From Leeuwenhoekiella polynyae (GTDB lineage: Bacteria; Bacteroidota; Bacteroidia; Flavobacteriales; Flavobacteriaceae): 51,669 bases of DNA. The position numbers and the translations under genes are program-made. Positions 1 through 4,987 of the stretch are shown piece after piece (position 1 is the stretch's first letter; every line of letters begins with the position of its first letter). The notes under the pieces were generated by a model, which was not told where the DNA came from, did no database searches, and saw nothing but the letters and a program-made list of their open reading frames with translations. Location of the stretch: positions 1-51,669 of the forward strand of contig NZ_QOVK01000025.1 in NCBI RefSeq assembly GCF_004104075.1, written 5' to 3'.

Positions 1-1627
1 GTTTGAAGTATGACAAACATTATAAGTCCAGCGGACACCTGTTTATTGGCTGGTCGGCAGGCGTCATTTAGGAGGCATGACCAGTATTTGGGCTTATTTA
101 CGGAACTCGGGAACCTGTGCCAAGATGCAAAGTGAAATGCACAATAGCGCAAACTAGAGGCAGAATAGCGAAGCTTGACACAGGGACGGATCAGTCTGTA
201 GTAGTGATGAAGTTTCTGTAATGGAAATGGAGCGAAGGGATTGACTTATTCAGTTTTATCAATTTTTACAACTCGCAAGAGGATGATTGAATTTGAGAAG
301 ACAAAATCATTACCTATTACTAAAGAAATGGTATGGGAAGCTTATCTACAGGTAAGGCGCAAAGGGAAAAGTGCAGGGGTAGATGAATTGAGTATGTCAC
401 AGTACGACCTACAAAGACATCGACACTTATACAAAGTCTGGAACCGCTTAGCCTCGGGCAGCTATTTCCCACCTCCAGTCCTACAAGTTGAAATCCCTAA
501 GAAAAACGGTTCTGTCCGTCAATTGGGGATTCCTACCATTAGCGATAGAGTAGCTCAAACGGTTATAAAGAATCAACTAGAAGAAAGACTGGAAAAGATC
601 TTTCATCCACACTCCTATGGTTATCGACCAAAACGTAGTGCTCATCAAGCACTTGATCAGGTTCGTGCAAACTGTTGGAAATACGATTGGGTGATCGACT
701 TGGATATCAAGAATTTCTTTGATGACATTGACCACGACAAGTTACTTAAAGCGCTAGGCAAACACGTGGATGAAAAGTGGGTGCTGCGATACATTGAAAG
801 ATGGCTCAAAGCTCCACTGCAAACCCGAAGAGGTGAAATTATTTCAAGAACAAAAGGCACACCGCAAGGTGGGGTGATCAGCCCACTCTTAGCCAATTTG
901 TTTTTGCATTACACCTTGGATGTTTGGCTTGGAAGATTGAACCCTTCTATTGAATTTGTACGTTATGCCGATGATATTATCATCCATTGTTCGACACAAA
1001 GTCAGGCAGAGCAAAATCTACAAGAAATCAAAGAAAGGGTGGAGCATTGTGGATTGACCTTACACCCAGAGAAAACGAAAATCGTGTACTGTAAGGATTT
1101 TAGAAGGCAACAAAAGTATGAAAAAGTGAAGTTTGACTTCTTGGGATATACTTTTCAGCCTCGCACCTCAAAATCCAAGAAAACAGGGAAACTGTTTTTG
1201 GGCTTTGATTGTGCAATCAGCATCCAGTCAAGATCACGGGTATTTGAACAGATCAGGAAAATGGAAATCCCAAGAATGCAGTGTAAAAGTATTGTTGGCA
1301 TAGCACATCACTTGAACCCAAAACTCCGAGGGTGGATACGTTACTTTGGTAAATACCGTGGCTACAGCTTATCCAAAGTGTTTTATGTACTACGCATAAA
1401 ATTGGTAAGATGGGCTAGATATCGTTACAAACGGTATAGAACTAACTTGATAAAAGCCTATAAATGGTTAGACAGGGTTCGGGAACAATATCCCAGCCTC
1501 TTTTACCACTGGCATTTGGGTTATTCGAATTAAAGGTATAAATTGAATAAGAAGAGCCGTATGATGGGAGACTATCACGTACGGTTCTGTGAGAGGCTCG
1601 GGGTGAAATTCCCCTTGCCTACTCGAC
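1..1627 (+). mobile_element. Group II intron 1 (5' end outside window)
   Basis: Most of a group II intron that carries its own reverse transcriptase. Positions 1-240 are structured non-coding domain I-III sequence, the ORF occupies domain IV, the 34-nt domain V core lies at 1554-1587, and domain VI with the 3' end at 1593-1627 ends in AC, fitting the AY rule. Aligning its left part with the second intron (shared AGCGGA..CCT anchor at 30 and 1897) puts its 5' end about 240 nt before the window. The next base starts a GTGTG motif, the usual group II 5' end, so intron 2 follows with no exon between. Confidence 0.85.
283..1533 (+). CDS. ltrA: Group II intron reverse transcriptase/maturase
   Basis: Intron-encoded protein of about 416 aa that helps its RNA fold and splice, then copies it into DNA at new sites. 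The RT fingers and palm are clear: SYGYRPKRSAH, DLDIKNFFDDIDH, GTPQGGVISPLLAN and the catalytic RYADD (codons 961-975). The C-terminal RGWIRYFGKYRGYS segment is the group II maturase domain X. No HNH endonuclease domain follows, as in endonuclease-free intron classes. I chose ATG at 283 because AAGAGG lies just upstream and intron 2 preserves the same AAGAGGATGA landmark; a TTG at 241 in the same frame would add 14 residues. The reading frame is intact, so the protein could act on its own intron and on the ORF-less neighbour. Confidence 0.9.
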   Translation: MIEFEKTKSLPITKEMVWEAYLQVRRKGKSAGVDELSMSQYDLQRHRHLYKVWNRLASGSYFPPPVLQVEIPKKNGSVRQLGIPTISDRVAQTVIKNQLEERLEKIFHPHSYGYRPKRSAHQALDQVRANCWKYDWVIDLDIKNFFDDIDHDKLLKALGKHVDEKWVLRYIERWLKAPLQTRRGEIISRTKGTPQGGVISPLLANLFLHYTLDVWLGRLNPSIEFVRYADDIIIHCSTQSQAEQNLQEIKERVEHCGLTLHPEKTKIVYCKDFRRQQKYEKVKFDFLGYTFQPRTSKSKKTGKLFLGFDCAISIQSRSRVFEQIRKMEIPRMQCKSIVGIAHHLNPKLRGWIRYFGKYRGYSLSKVFYVLRIKLVRWARYRYKRYRTNLIKAYKWLDRVREQYPSLFYHWHLGYSN

Positions 1628-2251
1628 GTGTGCTGTGAGTGGGGCATAAACCTCACGTAACTATTTATAAGATGGTGGAACCGACCCACCAGAATCTGCT
1701 TGTAGGAGCTGGTTCTAAACCACTTCTCTAATGCATTCAAAGTAATTTGTTTGTGTGAAGCGAGAGAAGAAAAGGCAGACTGGATCTGTCAGGTGTTGAT
1801 AAAAGAGATGAGCGAAAGCGAACCTTCCGATGAAGCGTCGAGAAGACAAAACATGTTGCCAAAACCGAGAAATGTCGAGTTCTCAGGGACAAGGATAGCG
1901 GAAACCTATTTACTGGCTATTCGGCAACCGTCGTATAGGGGGCATGACTTTTATCTGGGCTTATGGATGGAACGCAGGAAGCCTTACATTAATGTAAAAG
2001 GGAAAAATCAAGCAGAGCAACTGCAAGATGATTACCAATGTAGTGTAAGGTGGCGGACTAACTCGTAGTAGTGAAGAAACTCCTGTAATGGGAGTGGAGC
2101 AAAGGGGTTAGCTAATTTAAAATATGATTTGCCAACTTGAAAGAGGATGAGCTTATATTTTGTAAATTAAATTAGAAGAGCCGTATGATGGGAGACTATC
2201 ACGTACGGTTCTGTGAGAGGGGAAGGGTGAAACTCCCTTTTCCTACTCGAC
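1628..2251 (+). mobile_element. Group II intron 2, ORF-less
   Basis: A 624-nt intron with GTGTG at its 5' end, a domain V core at 2178-2211 identical to that of intron 1, and the same ...CTACTCGAC 3' end. Its domain IV is only a stub: after AAGAGGATGA (2141-2150), which matches the RBS and start codon of the intron 1 RT gene, the sequence runs almost directly into the domain V flank. The RT gene has therefore been deleted nearly precisely. The open frame at 1751-2068 is domain I RNA, not a gene. Boundaries rest on consensus ends and the comparison of the two copies. Confidence 0.8.
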
Positions 2252-2259
2252 ACCCAAAC

Positions 2260-2268
2260 GTTGGCAAC
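2260..2268 (+). repeat. GTTGGCAAC cassette-boundary motif
   Basis: GTTGGCAACAAGCT lies nine bases after the intron 2 end. A near-identical GTTTGGCAACAAGCT occurs at 4570-4583. Each is followed by AAA-rich sequence and a small gene, and each small-gene block ends in GTTGCCAAC (3088-3096; 4889-4897). The layout resembles recombination-site-bounded cassettes, but I cannot assign it to a known attC family. Confidence 0.5.
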
Positions 2269-2285
2269 AAGCTGAAATCAATCAA

Positions 2286-2648
2286 ATGGAACGTCGAACG
2301 ATAATAATAATTGGATTCCTATTCTGTTTAATCGGAATTTTGATTGCGCCATTATTTTATGAAAATACGCAATACGGAGAAATTTTCTTTTTGTTAATTA
2401 TATATCCAATTCCTGCACTGATTTTAGCAACTCTAAATGGATACCTACTTCGATTTACGGAATTGAAAACTCAAAATCTGATTTTAAAAATCGGAATTGG
2501 ATTCATTCCTATTCTAATTATGATATTGTTGGCCAATGGAAAGGAATCACCAATACAATTTATAGCAACTTTTGGAAGTATTGGAATTGGAATAACTGAC
2601 CTAATTTGGATTACAAAATTGACAAAAAGCCAATTGACAACAAACTAA
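2286..2648 (+). CDS. Small four-helix membrane protein, unknown function
   Basis: A 120-aa protein made almost entirely of four hydrophobic segments (about residues 5-24, 31-52, 67-84 and 90-107), with short charged loops. I recognise no family. Its codons are strongly AT-rich (many ATA and ATT), unlike the core genes to the right. It begins 18 nt after a GTTGGCAAC motif, and its stop is one base before the ATG of the next gene, so the two are probably cotranscribed. It is the first gene of a cassette-like block and was probably acquired horizontally. An inner-membrane location is inferred from hydropathy only. Confidence 0.6.
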   Translation: MERRTIIIIGFLFCLIGILIAPLFYENTQYGEIFFLLIIYPIPALILATLNGYLLRFTELKTQNLILKIGIGFIPILIMILLANGKESPIQFIATFGSIGIGITDLIWITKLTKSQLTTN

Positions 2649-2649
2649 A

Positions 2650-3120
2650 ATGAACGAAATTAAGAAAGTCAAAATTTTTACAATACTAATTCATTCGTTC
2701 ATAATAATTGGAGCTGGACACGGAATTGGAATTATGGGAATAATTGATTTTGCGAGTATTCCAAATTTAATAGACAATTACGGATTTACGTTAAATCGAA
2801 ATTTTGATGATGATATTATGTCAATCGGACATTTATCTCTAATTGGAAAAATATTGTTGATTTTTAGCCTGTTTATAAAAATTAATAGGATTAAAAACCT
2901 GACTGCTTTAATCGGAATTTTAATTTTATGGGTTTCAGTTTATTTTCTGACTTCTGGAAATTGGAATTATGACTCACTTTATGAATTAGCTTTTTGGACA
3001 AGTATTCCGTTTCTGATTTCATCAATAATTCTAACTTATTTAATAATTAAAAACATCAAACAAAATATAGAACGGAATAAAAAGCCAGTTGCCAACAATG
3101 TATCCTATGAAAAGCCCTAG
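2650..3120 (+). CDS. Small four-helix membrane protein, unknown function
   Basis: A 156-aa protein with four predicted membrane segments (roughly residues 9-31, 59-78, 83-102 and 114-135) and a basic C-terminal tail. No family is recognised. It starts one base after the preceding gene's stop, so the pair is translationally close. The last dozen codons (…KPVANNVSYEKP) are written across the GTTGCCAAC boundary motif at 3088-3096. The frame thus reads through the cassette end and stops 24 nt later, so the original C-terminus may have been shorter or different before this junction formed. Confidence 0.6.
   Translation: MNEIKKVKIFTILIHSFIIIGAGHGIGIMGIIDFASIPNLIDNYGFTLNRNFDDDIMSIGHLSLIGKILLIFSLFIKINRIKNLTALIGILILWVSVYFLTSGNWNYDSLYELAFWTSIPFLISSIILTYLIIKNIKQNIERNKKPVANNVSYEKP
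3088..3096 (+). repeat. GTTGCCAAC cassette-boundary motif
   Basis: Inverted partner of the GTTGGCAAC motif at 2260-2268, in the context AAAAAGCCAGTTGCCAACA. The same context (AAAAAAGCCCAGTTGCCAACA) closes the later block at 4880-4899. It overlaps the 3' end of the 156-aa gene. Confidence 0.5.
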
Positions 3121-3188: not shown

Positions 3189-3491
3189 TTGATAATTCCG
3201 ATAGGATTATCAATCATTCAATACCTATATAACTTGCTCAGCATCCTATATGTGGTCCATGAATTTTCAGTAACCGAAAATGGAACTGAAATATCAAATG
3301 GAACTTATGAGTTAATTATGAAAGAGTCTATTTACTCTGGAAAAATGGAAAGACTTATTCAATTTCCTGAAAACGAACAATATTTAGGGTTTGTGAAAAC
3401 TGGAATAATAAATATTTACAAAAACGAAAAACTCAATATTTCTGACAACAATGCTGATGGAATTGGAAGTGAATTTGTAAGAATTGAATAA
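3189..3491 (+). CDS. Hypothetical protein, possibly 5'-truncated
   Basis: An open frame of 100 codons from a TTG. The only in-frame ATG is far inside, so this may be the 3' part of a gene that lost its beginning. The predicted protein has one N-terminal hydrophobic stretch and then a polar part with repeated-looking phrases (ENGTEISNGTYELIMKES). I recognise no domain. Base use is very AT-rich, like the neighbouring cassette genes. It ends 21 nt before the first structured RNA element. Expression is uncertain. Confidence 0.35.
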   Translation: MIIPIGLSIIQYLYNLLSILYVVHEFSVTENGTEISNGTYELIMKESIYSGKMERLIQFPENEQYLGFVKTGIINIYKNEKLNISDNNADGIGSEFVRIE

Positions 3492-3512
3492 AACTACACT
3501 AAATAGCTTGCC

Positions 3513-3870
3513 TTCGTGAGGCCGTTACAGCCTGTCCCGTTGAAGAACGGGAACCCAGAATGAATACCGTGTTGACTGAACCGGTTGGTTGTCTGTTTGC
3601 TCGCTATAAGCCAACAGAGTTATGCAGGCAACATCTGCAGATTTAGGACTGATGGTTCTGCCTTACAACCTGAAAAGGTGGTTTAATCTTGGGGTATTCA
3701 AAGCTCTTGATTGCGTTATAGCGTACGTTTTAATGCTCATTAAGGCCTTTAGAAAACGTATGAGGTAAACTACAGTCTTAAAACAAAGACATTCCAATAT
3801 TCGCTTTTTGTTTTGGATATCGCAGTCACTTCAACTACTTTTATAAACAGGTGGTTGTGAGACAAACTGC
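3513..3870 (+). ncRNA. Structured non-coding element, copy A
   Basis: About 358 nt without a credible ORF, homologous over its ends to copy B at 4221-4569. Shared blocks are ACAGCCTGTCCC, GAACGGGAACCCAG, GTGTTGACTGAACCGGTTGG, TTACAACCTGAAAAGG, GGATATCGCAG and ACAGGTGGTT. Possible pairings are GCCTGT with ACAGGT (closing stem), CCCGTT-gaag-AACGGG, and TACGTTTT (3724-3731) with AAAACGTA (3753-3760) around a TAAGGCC loop. The last stem is replaced by an unrelated pair in copy B, which suggests conserved RNA structure. Strand is inferred. Tests against HEARO/omega-RNA and group I models are the obvious next comparisons; I recognise none with confidence. Confidence 0.55.
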
Positions 3871-3918
3871 CGTTAGCACCAATATTCACGAATCTGAAAA
3901 ATAAGTAAAACTTAAATA

Positions 3919-4104
3919 ATGATAAAGTTATCTAATACTGTAAAAATCACTGGATTAATTTCTATCTGTTTATGGATAATTGGGAGTATTATCTTATTCA
4001 ATGAAAAAAATGGAAGAGCCACTATTGTCCTTACTGCTGTAATTATAATAGCTGGATTGTATGCCCAAATAATTAAAGAAAGAAAAGTAAATTCGGAACA
4101 TTAA
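3919..4104 (+). CDS. Two-helix membrane microprotein
   Basis: A 61-aa protein with two hydrophobic segments (about residues 9-28 and 33-51) and a short charged C-terminus (KERKVNSEH). It has an ATG start after an AT-rich leader and lies between the two copies of the structured RNA element. No family is recognised. It resembles its neighbours at 2286, 2650 and 4608 in size, hydrophobicity and base composition, though not visibly in sequence, as expected for unrelated cargo of one cassette array. Confidence 0.5.
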   Translation: MIKLSNTVKITGLISICLWIIGSIILFNEKNGRATIVLTAVIIIAGLYAQIIKERKVNSEH

Positions 4105-4107
4105 GGC

Positions 4108-4220
4108 AAATTTTATTTTAATAAAAAACGCAACTTGTTGTTCTCTCTGAGTATTATAGTAGGACAAAATAATATTCATTGGGAACCGAGAAAATAAAGT
4201 GCGTTGCACAATAACTAACG
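4108..4220. other. Non-coding junction with attC-like dyad
   Basis: Between the 61-aa gene and RNA copy B. Imperfect inverted segments are TTTTATTT with AAAATAAA, and GCAAC near 4130 with GTTGC near 4203. They leave a long folded interior, followed by ACTAACG. The dyad is reminiscent of an integron attC hairpin, but the simple consensus is not satisfied. Confidence 0.25.
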
Positions 4221-4569
4221 TTCGTGCAGCCGGTACAGCCTGTCCCATTGTAGAACGGGAACCCAGCATGAACCGTGTTGACTGAACCGGTTGGTTGCTT
4301 GATGTCTTGATTTTCTCCTGAGTATCCTTATCGCTTCCTAAATGCTGTAGGCTTACAACCTGAAAAGGCTCATCAACCTTGGGATAGCATTCAATACTGC
4401 TATTCATTATTCAATGTCTCGTGTTTTTGGTTTGCTAAGGCCGTTAAAAGAAGAATATGCAAACGGTATTGCCTTAAGGCTACTCTTGTCTCTTCTTTAA
4501 ATTTTATTGGATATCGCAGCCACTTCAATTACTTTTAAAGAATAAACAGGTGGTTATGAGACAGACTGC
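4221..4569 (+). ncRNA. Structured non-coding element, copy B
   Basis: Diverged second copy of the element at 3513-3870, about 349 nt. It shares the conserved end blocks, while the interior differs in both sequence and length. The stem around the TAAGGCC loop is here GTTTGC (4430-4435) with GCAAAC (4459-4464), a different pair from copy A at the same place, which supports base pairing. It ends at GAGACAGACTGC, directly abutting the GTTTGGCAACAAGCT motif. An antisense open frame at 3994-4407 crosses it but looks accidental. Confidence 0.55.
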
Positions 4570-4607
4570 GTTTGGCAACAAGCTAAAATGAAAATGAATA
4601 AATTTTT

Positions 4608-4826
4608 ATGGAAAAAACTACAATAATAGTTGGGATAATTATTCTTTTAATAACAACTTTTTTCAGTTGGAAGATTTTTGGTTCTAATAATAAAAAACAA
4701 CCGGATAATAATTACAAAAAATGGAAGTCAAAATGGATTTTTTGGCAAGGTGTAATATTCCCGAGTATTATAGCAACATTTCTGATAATGTTCATTTTAA
4801 AATGGACTGGTGTATTGATTTTTTAA
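4608..4826 (+). CDS. Two-helix membrane microprotein
   Basis: A 72-aa protein with an N-terminal helix (about residues 5-23), a very basic middle (KKQPDNNYKKWKSKW) and a second helix (about 48-70). It is probably an inner-membrane hairpin with a positively charged cytoplasmic loop. It is not recognised as a family. It is the sole gene of the block bounded by GTTTGGCAAC (4570) and GTTGCCAAC (4889), which makes it the cleanest example of a cassette here. Confidence 0.55.
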   Translation: MEKTTIIVGIIILLITTFFSWKIFGSNNKKQPDNNYKKWKSKWIFWQGVIFPSIIATFLIMFILKWTGVLIF

Positions 4827-4888: not shown

Positions 4889-4897
4889 GTTGCCAAC
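4889..4897 (+). repeat. GTTGCCAAC cassette-boundary motif
   Basis: Right boundary of the last small-gene block, with the same GCCCAGTTGCCAACA context as at 3088. To its right, sequence composition changes toward the core genome. Confidence 0.5.
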
Positions 4898-4949
4898 ACA
4901 AATGGTAGCCGTAGCACAACCCCATAATTCTAAAAAACGTATTCATTTA

Positions 4950-4987
4950 AACCGTCCCGATAGCTATCGGGATGAGCGGTTTTTTTA
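4950..4987 (+). terminator. Rho-independent-type terminator with CCCGATAGC palindrome
   Basis: AACCG, then the 16-base palindrome CCCGATAGCTATCGGG, then CGGTT followed by a T run. It fits a terminator for the cassette region. The palindrome resembles the dispersed CCCCGAAAGC..GGGG palindrome at 34078. The rest of 4827-5218 shows no gene and no other strong signal. Confidence 0.65.

Follow-up and report, generated by a model that had tools for sequence, protein, structure and literature searches.

Integron cassettes of the attC type carry an end box that pairs with their start box, and the consensus of these boxes in integrons is GTTRRRY/RYYYAAC. Clusters of attC sites without an integrase are known as CALIN. 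The IS91 family comprises elements with rolling-circle transposases of the Y2 type, characteristic ori and ter sites and a target tetranucleotide. According to PMC9330008 and PMC7923331, IS1111-attC elements and group IIC-attC introns prefer attC sites, and PMC8618304 and PMC9668308 count the Bacteroidota among the phyla with integrons. For the Bacteroidetes proper, PMC9024848 states that IntegronFinder 2.0 recovered a single complete integron, in Salinibacter, and that only integrases without cassettes had been known there before. In the open-access literature searched, PMC3478194 included, there was no account of IS91- or IS1182-type elements that home to the ends of flavobacterial cassettes.

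The window analysed here is a whole contig of 51,669 b from genome G000, whose first 5 kb contain two group II introns, small ORFs and two related copies, A and B, of a short block. The initial annotation had read these copies as a structured RNA-like element and offered three origins for them: a guide RNA of the HEARO/omega kind, a new ncRNA family or an IS remnant. The last of these was borne out, although two different IS families are involved, both at cassette junctions. It is very likely that each copy consists of nested remains from two transposable elements with preferred insertion sites, lodged at a junction within an integron-like array of cassettes.

Layout of the first 5 kb

The two introns, the first with a maturase and the second without an ORF, were located by Rfam and Pfam at 1..2251 on the + strand. 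Rfam RF00029 was matched at 1552-1627 and 2176-2251 and RF01999 at 1674-1794, and the ORF at 241-1533 carries the Pfam domains RVT_1 and GIIM of the maturase. The introns are arranged head to tail; the contig starts inside the first, and the boundary between them seems to lie at about 1627, the end of the first. Within 10 nt of the end of the second intron comes the cassette start AAACG|TTGGCAACAAG. The cassette upstream of copy A (2261..3095, +, from the ORF list) holds ORFs of 120 and 156 aa, the second extending to 3120; it starts with G|TTGGCAACAAG and ends with AGTTGCCAAC, the complementarity being judged by eye. The next ORF, at 3189-3491, is probably a pseudogene. By eye, its N-terminus seems to have been lost in comparison with a relative on the reverse strand of L029 in genome G002, where an IS1182-type right end precedes the gene start. 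A degenerate R''-like box at 3495..3503 (+), read from the letters and positioned by analogy, would close the cassette that precedes copy A.

The description of the copies as lying between small-gene blocks was confirmed, the order being ORF, copy A, small ORF, copy B, small ORF. The A-B cassette contains an ORF of 61 aa (3919..4104, +) with no Pfam family over cut-off, and the cassette after copy B an ORF of 72 aa (4608..4826, +), both taken from the ORF list. No nuclease gene was present among the ORFs around the copies. Past the array, at 4951-4987, the palindrome TCCCGATAGCTATCGGGA lies in a terminator-like hairpin, and similar palindromes were seen inside several relatives' junctions.

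Copies A and B are related, with identical end blocks and a variable middle (80% mean column identity across the aligned part). The two repeats of about 350 nt that had been placed at 3513-3870 and 4221-4569 are real, but their left edges lie slightly further out, at 3502 and 4210: the left module was matched at 3502-3583 in A and 4210-4289 in B, and the right edges are at about 3870 and 4569. Partial relatives of A and B are numerous in the source genome, and relatives were found at E 0.001 in 7 of the 13 genomes of the genus. The left and right parts of the block were often found separately, which was the first sign that the block is composite. Two parts span A (3502-3607 and 3611-3874) and B (4210-4348 and 4352-4569) nearly end to end. 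The A-ORF-B block is present in G002 too, where both copies flank the same stretch, suggesting that it either arose before these species diverged or passed between them.

Identity of the left and right parts

By sequence comparison, we assign the left part of A and B to the transposase-3' end of an IS91-family element: it matches the end of a Y2-transposase element, and in the window the transposase itself is gone. The left module starts with AATAAC, typically just 3' of a cassette ORF, and is present in other genera; past it, relatives have the C-terminus of the transposase in antisense orientation. The left part of copy A (3502..3607, +) gave a covariance-model match over 3502-3583 with 87.6 bits, and blastn aligned it with L026 (82%, E 3e-26), L021 (86%, E 2e-28), L066 (86%, E 6e-23) and the element of G231 (85% over 48 nt, E 6e-10). 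L021 and L026 are copies in the window's own genome, L026 retaining a Y2_Tnp fragment; past the match, the sequence in L021 and L066 resembles L026 by eye. The sole Pfam match of the antisense ORF next to the L021 remnant was WhiB, below cut-off. In copy B the left part (4210..4348, +; covariance model 91.2 bits) carries an internal deletion. It matched L021, L026 and L066 at 88-91% and G231 at 91% over 33 nt (blastn), and its match to L026 is split (query 16-103 and 89-154 against L026 1-90 and 150-217), leaving about 60 nt of L026 absent.

The covariance model produced 11 matches in G231, and 10 of these copies were read. The IS91-type element is about 2.4 kb long in 5 of the aligned copies, and its domains are Zn_Tnp_IS91 (4.5e-27), Y2_Tnp (2.6e-22 and 7e-32) and Phage_integrase (7.9e-14); the transposase frame was found to be split in the single IS91-type copy in which it was read. 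When the far end was checked in 8 of the 10 copies, 7 of them, including one in L165 lengthened by an insertion, ended in CCTTTAGGTTTAGTTC and continued directly into AACA... attC-like arms. In L163-L168 of this genome there are several IS91-type elements of 2.4 kb that are almost identical to one another and carry a tyrosine recombinase gene, apparently the product of a recent expansion. Relatives were few in wide searches: DNA comparison gave them in 5 of 397 genomes of the family, and the covariance model of the left module, under stricter filters, in 12 of 395 genomes of the order.

Three other assignments concerning the left module were rejected. It has a GTGYG like the 5' end of a group II intron; the introns of the window begin otherwise, and in L027 and L069 an intron-like stretch sits inside the module. 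Its reading as the native half of a giant attC was dropped for an IS91 end after the G231 copies had been read, and a Fulvivirga match (L074) turned out to share merely a short common hairpin in another context. The group II intron-like stretches, recognised by eye in the IS91-type end at L027 10494 (-) and L069 9807 (-), enter just 3' of the hairpin (GAACRCC|GTGTGTG...) and would constitute a third kind of mobile element at these junctions. Two further variants were observed: in the cassette array of G065 (L119, L130), junctions of about 430 nt, much alike, start with the IS91-type end and finish with GGATATAACGAG|TTG, and in L032 and L024 8937 (-) the left module changes after the CCCG hairpin to a different partner, a common sequence running from CCTAACGCTCCGGCA to GAGTTAACGCT.

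The right part of both copies is an IS1182-type remnant, comprising the C-terminal portion of the transposase and the right end. The congener G003 has complete copies of such an element at cassette borders, one of which (L052 7319-8866) is open over 515 codons, in which Pfam recognises DUF772 and DDE_Tnp_1_6; we take IS1182 to be the proper family name for it. The last residues of the transposase, ...VGYRIHFNYF, are encoded by the conserved 3' block of A and B. For copy A (right part 3611..3869, +), the decayed C-terminus and right end were recognised from both protein and DNA by tblastn, blastn and translations. The 515-aa G003 transposase matched 3622-3741 and 3740-3841 in two frames (50% and 41%, E 1e-6), and the protein match covers approximately 3703-3740, which the best DNA matches do not. 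The tblastn matches to copy B were weak (E 0.02 and 0.29), and its right part (4352..4569, +), a degraded C-terminus with the right end from another IS1182-type lineage, was identified by blastn and translation, mainly from DNA matches to other remnants (L024 and L021, 84% over 211-216 nt, E 5e-62 or better). The nearest lineage by translations and blastn is L068 for A and L024/L021 for B; since the two copies carry C-termini of different transposase lineages, they have like ends and unlike middles. A 53-aa query for an intact copy of B's exact IS1182 lineage found none, the matches at E 1e-6 being confined to 2 of 299 genomes and to remnants. Relatives of the G003 transposase were present in 17 of 60 genomes of the family.

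Six of the eight G003 IS1182-type copies examined were readable from the left end, and all six have CCGT on both sides, the right repeat leading into CCG|TT in 5. In copy A the left end of the IS1182-type element is gone and CCGT is seen at the right side only (3870..3873, +), as at the insertion repeat, with the cassette start G|TT at 3872|3873. The right junction of copy B (4569..4572, +) reads CGTT, not CCGT, and the next cassette starts there with G|TTTGGCAACAAG, which has one extra T.

Cassette boxes, integrase search and origin of the junctions

The box tests compared each site's own boxes with the boxes of other sites, at a reach of up to 2.5 kb upstream or downstream that may take in a neighbouring cassette, as at L119, where the best box is the neighbouring cassette's. 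In G231, where 10 of the 11 copies entered the test, 9 of 10 IS91-type copies were found directly 3' of a 9-nt box that is perfectly complementary (9/9) to an upstream G|TT box, the partner lying 458-2135 nt upstream of the copy; 8.9% of the boxes of other sites reach at least 8, and 0 of 10000 permutations were as good. Left modules from six genomes, tested without copy A, whose left end has diverged, and including at least one site (L061, minus strand) that may be no real site, scored at least 8 of 9 in 10 of 27 cases versus 6.8% (0 of 10000 permutations as good). The corresponding result for IS1182-type right ends from four genomes, restricted to right ends with GTT near the end by a narrow end pattern, was 8 of 22 versus 6.3% (0 of 10000 permutations). 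The remaining 17 of 27 left modules and 14 of 22 right ends scored under 8 of 9. Short hairpin junctions gave 10 of 17 versus 6.6% in G003 (0 of 5000) and 6 of 16 versus 5.0% in G231 (27 of 5000); the sites in G000 (1 of 3, window excluded) and G065 (2 of 3) were too few.

Within the window, the A-B cassette fails the complementarity test. The R''-like box at its end, GTTGCACAA (4203..4211, +), is mismatched to the cassette's own start, and the best start-box score is 7 of 9, not at the cassette start. For the cassette with the 72-aa ORF, the end box AGTTGCCAAC (4889-4898) looks by eye to be complementary to its own cassette start if the extra T is skipped; the scripted search did not return this match and gave a score of 6, elsewhere. 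The cassette preceding A and the one following B pass a visual inspection only. Taken together, the arrays have the complementary R'' and R' boxes by which attC-type cassettes are recognised, and they behave like integron cassettes with both IS types at the cassette borders. The relatives indicate that the IS91-type element lies directly after an R''-like end box and the IS1182-type element at a cassette-start-like CCG|TT (5 of 6 readable copies).

A search for an integron integrase with TIGR02249 gave no match over cut-off in any of 13 congeners or 5 other genomes, the best match reaching 126 bits where 265 are required. The strongest matches were in two pieces and lacked about positions 181-237, the site of the part that is special to integron integrases. 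Control genomes also had matches below cut-off (14 of 14 in the congener search and 13 of 14 in the five-genome search), so that such a match means only "tyrosine recombinase". Tentatively, and as a rather unlikely extension of these data, flavobacteria may possess dispersed integron-like cassettes without a recognisable IntI alongside a recombinase-bearing IS91 element that homes to the R'' box; this recombinase or a relative of it may move the cassettes, and the IS-filled junctions may still be mobile.

It is unlikely that each whole block is instead one giant attC, folded and cut by the recombinase of the array, with the IS pieces forming its loop. Such junctions do occupy the attC position, and cassettes after IS1182-type ends can match end boxes (8 of 22; L021, L052, L058, L068), but no integrase exceeded the family cut-off in the 13 plus 5 genomes and the A-B cassette is without a box match.

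If A and B are nested remnants of two elements, as we prefer, an IS91-type element would have entered after the R'' box of a cassette junction and an IS1182-type element at CCGT before the R' box. Deletions would have cut out the middle, joining the left end of the first element to the C-terminus of the second, and the cassettes with their composite junctions would then have been passed on. The outer ends would be fixed because they are preferred insertion points, and the middle would vary because of deletion and decay; together, insertion preference and decay account for both ends and middle, so that an RNA function is not needed. A breakpoint near the transposase codons TKRG is common to L024 and both L068 copies, and the breakpoints of A, L027 and both G002 copies seem to derive from it. 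The breakpoint of B lies in ATGCTG, which is common to both parents.

The sharing of the TKRG breakpoint by several junctions, and the presence of both ends in order at ten (A, B, two in G002, L024, L058, L061, L063 and two in L068), would also be in keeping with a miniature element, that is, a single non-autonomous transposon composed of the left module and an IS1182-type right end and moving as a unit. We regard this as improbable, because the complete G003 IS1182-type copies possess a left end of their own and lack the left module, and because the left module is joined to other right parts in G065, G322 and L069 and also forms the end of IS91-type elements.

RNA structure and comparison with known systems

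The structural signal attributed to the copies was retained in part. A covarying hairpin is present in the left 80 nt or so, but it belongs to the IS91-family terminus and not to the stems that had been proposed. From 39 nhmmer matches, 4 and one duplicate were skipped and 3 from G065 were added to give 37 trimmed modules, of which 30 made up alignment A3, 7 broken or unrelated ones being left out. The hairpin was drawn from these same sequences, and in A3, which represents a single family, its support was modest (82.1% of cells paired versus 80.0% in shuffles; 7 double changes versus 4.4, reached in 32 of 500 shuffles). Alignment A4, which takes in more genera and was fitted to that structure, contains 58 matches in 53 distinct rows and gave a covariation score of 0.202 versus 0.107 shuffled (0 of 500 as high), with 73 cells changed on both sides versus 21.1 in shuffles and 85.7% of cells paired versus 27-46% when the structure was slid. 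RNAalifold returned no pairs for the 30 left modules, gapped columns being the probable reason. In both A and B one covarying pair (A3 columns 25/61) is broken as C-A, as dead ends would show, although it is also broken in a few other rows.

The stems themselves exist as letters, TACGTTTT/AAAACGTA in A and GTTTGC/GCAAAC in B. They were thought to be one stem with its pairing kept; in the 11-sequence alignment they occupy different columns, 72-79/101-108 in A and 83-88/112-117 in B. The inference of selection on RNA structure from compensatory changes also failed, as among the 11 homologues neither stem had a covariation score above the shuffled mean, and the A stem was paired in 65.1% of cells versus 68.1% in shuffles and the B stem in 53.1% versus 49.9%. 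Chance occurrence was estimated from 500 shuffles that kept two-base blocks intact: 85% of the shuffled B sequences had one or more 6-bp stems (loop of 5-30 nt), and 12% of the shuffled A sequences had one or more 8-bp stems. A stem like that of A is thus uncommon by chance, yet it is without a counterpart in other lineages. Both stems fall in dead transposase codons, and in L027 the TAAGGCC stretch is within the in-frame codon string for RLAKALRRRICKLY.

Rfam had been suggested as a check, and neither copy matched any family at the gathering score. At E up to 10 there were just seven matches around the copies, far under gathering scores, with HEARO and omega RNA absent. The proposal of a HEARO/omega guide RNA is therefore left without an Rfam match for a region that matches an IS1182-type transposase, and that of a new ncRNA family with stems that are non-homologous and not conserved in relatives; A and B very probably do not represent a new RNA gene. 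That both encode a structured ncRNA, whether an IscB/TnpB-like guide or scaffold or a new family, is hardly credible: the covarying hairpin of the left 80 nt, one L069 junction (left module, no IS1182 part) that folds better than shuffles (z -3.15) and the two 8-bp stem windows of copy A (shuffled mean 0.16) are outweighed by the lack of Rfam matches, the lack of conservation of the proposed stems, the transposase codons in the right half and the location of the hairpin at a transposon end in G231. This negative outcome for RNA spares follow-up work.

The useful outcome concerns A and B as transposon remnants, namely that two transposon families seem to prefer cassette junctions. The test of start box against end box recognises cassettes without any attC model. 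Should the flavobacterial arrays prove to be genuine cassettes, searches that rely on the integrase may overlook a reservoir, and it becomes a testable question which enzyme moves the cassettes. Both the targeting of cassette ends by two families of transposons and the missing integrase deserve a second look.

Compared with known systems, the copies have nothing in common with HEARO/omega RNA (IscB) beyond length and hairpins, there being no Rfam match and no nuclease gene nearby. The IS1111-attC elements and group IIC-attC introns belong to other families, whereas the elements here are IS91- and IS1182-type. The arrays resemble integron cassettes and CALIN in their small ORFs, R''/R'-type complementarity, hairpin junctions and G|TT position; they differ in that no IntI exceeded the TIGR02249 cut-off in 18 genomes and in that their boxes depart from GTTRRRY/RYYYAAC. 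The right part is like IS1182-type DDE elements in its relatives' 515-aa protein with DUF772 and DDE_Tnp_1_6, inverted ends CAGACTGTCTCAAAAC / GTTTTGAGACAGACTG and 4-bp flanking repeat, and unlike them in that all 6 readable copies have CCGT as this repeat, which runs on into CCG|TT in 5, and that the window contains C-terminal remnants only. With the IS91 family and its ISCR relatives, the left part shares Zn_Tnp_IS91 and Y2_Tnp in the G231 relative and a hairpin at the transposase-3' end, whereas the G231 element is distinguished by an adjoining tyrosine recombinase gene and by its location at cassette R''-like boxes.
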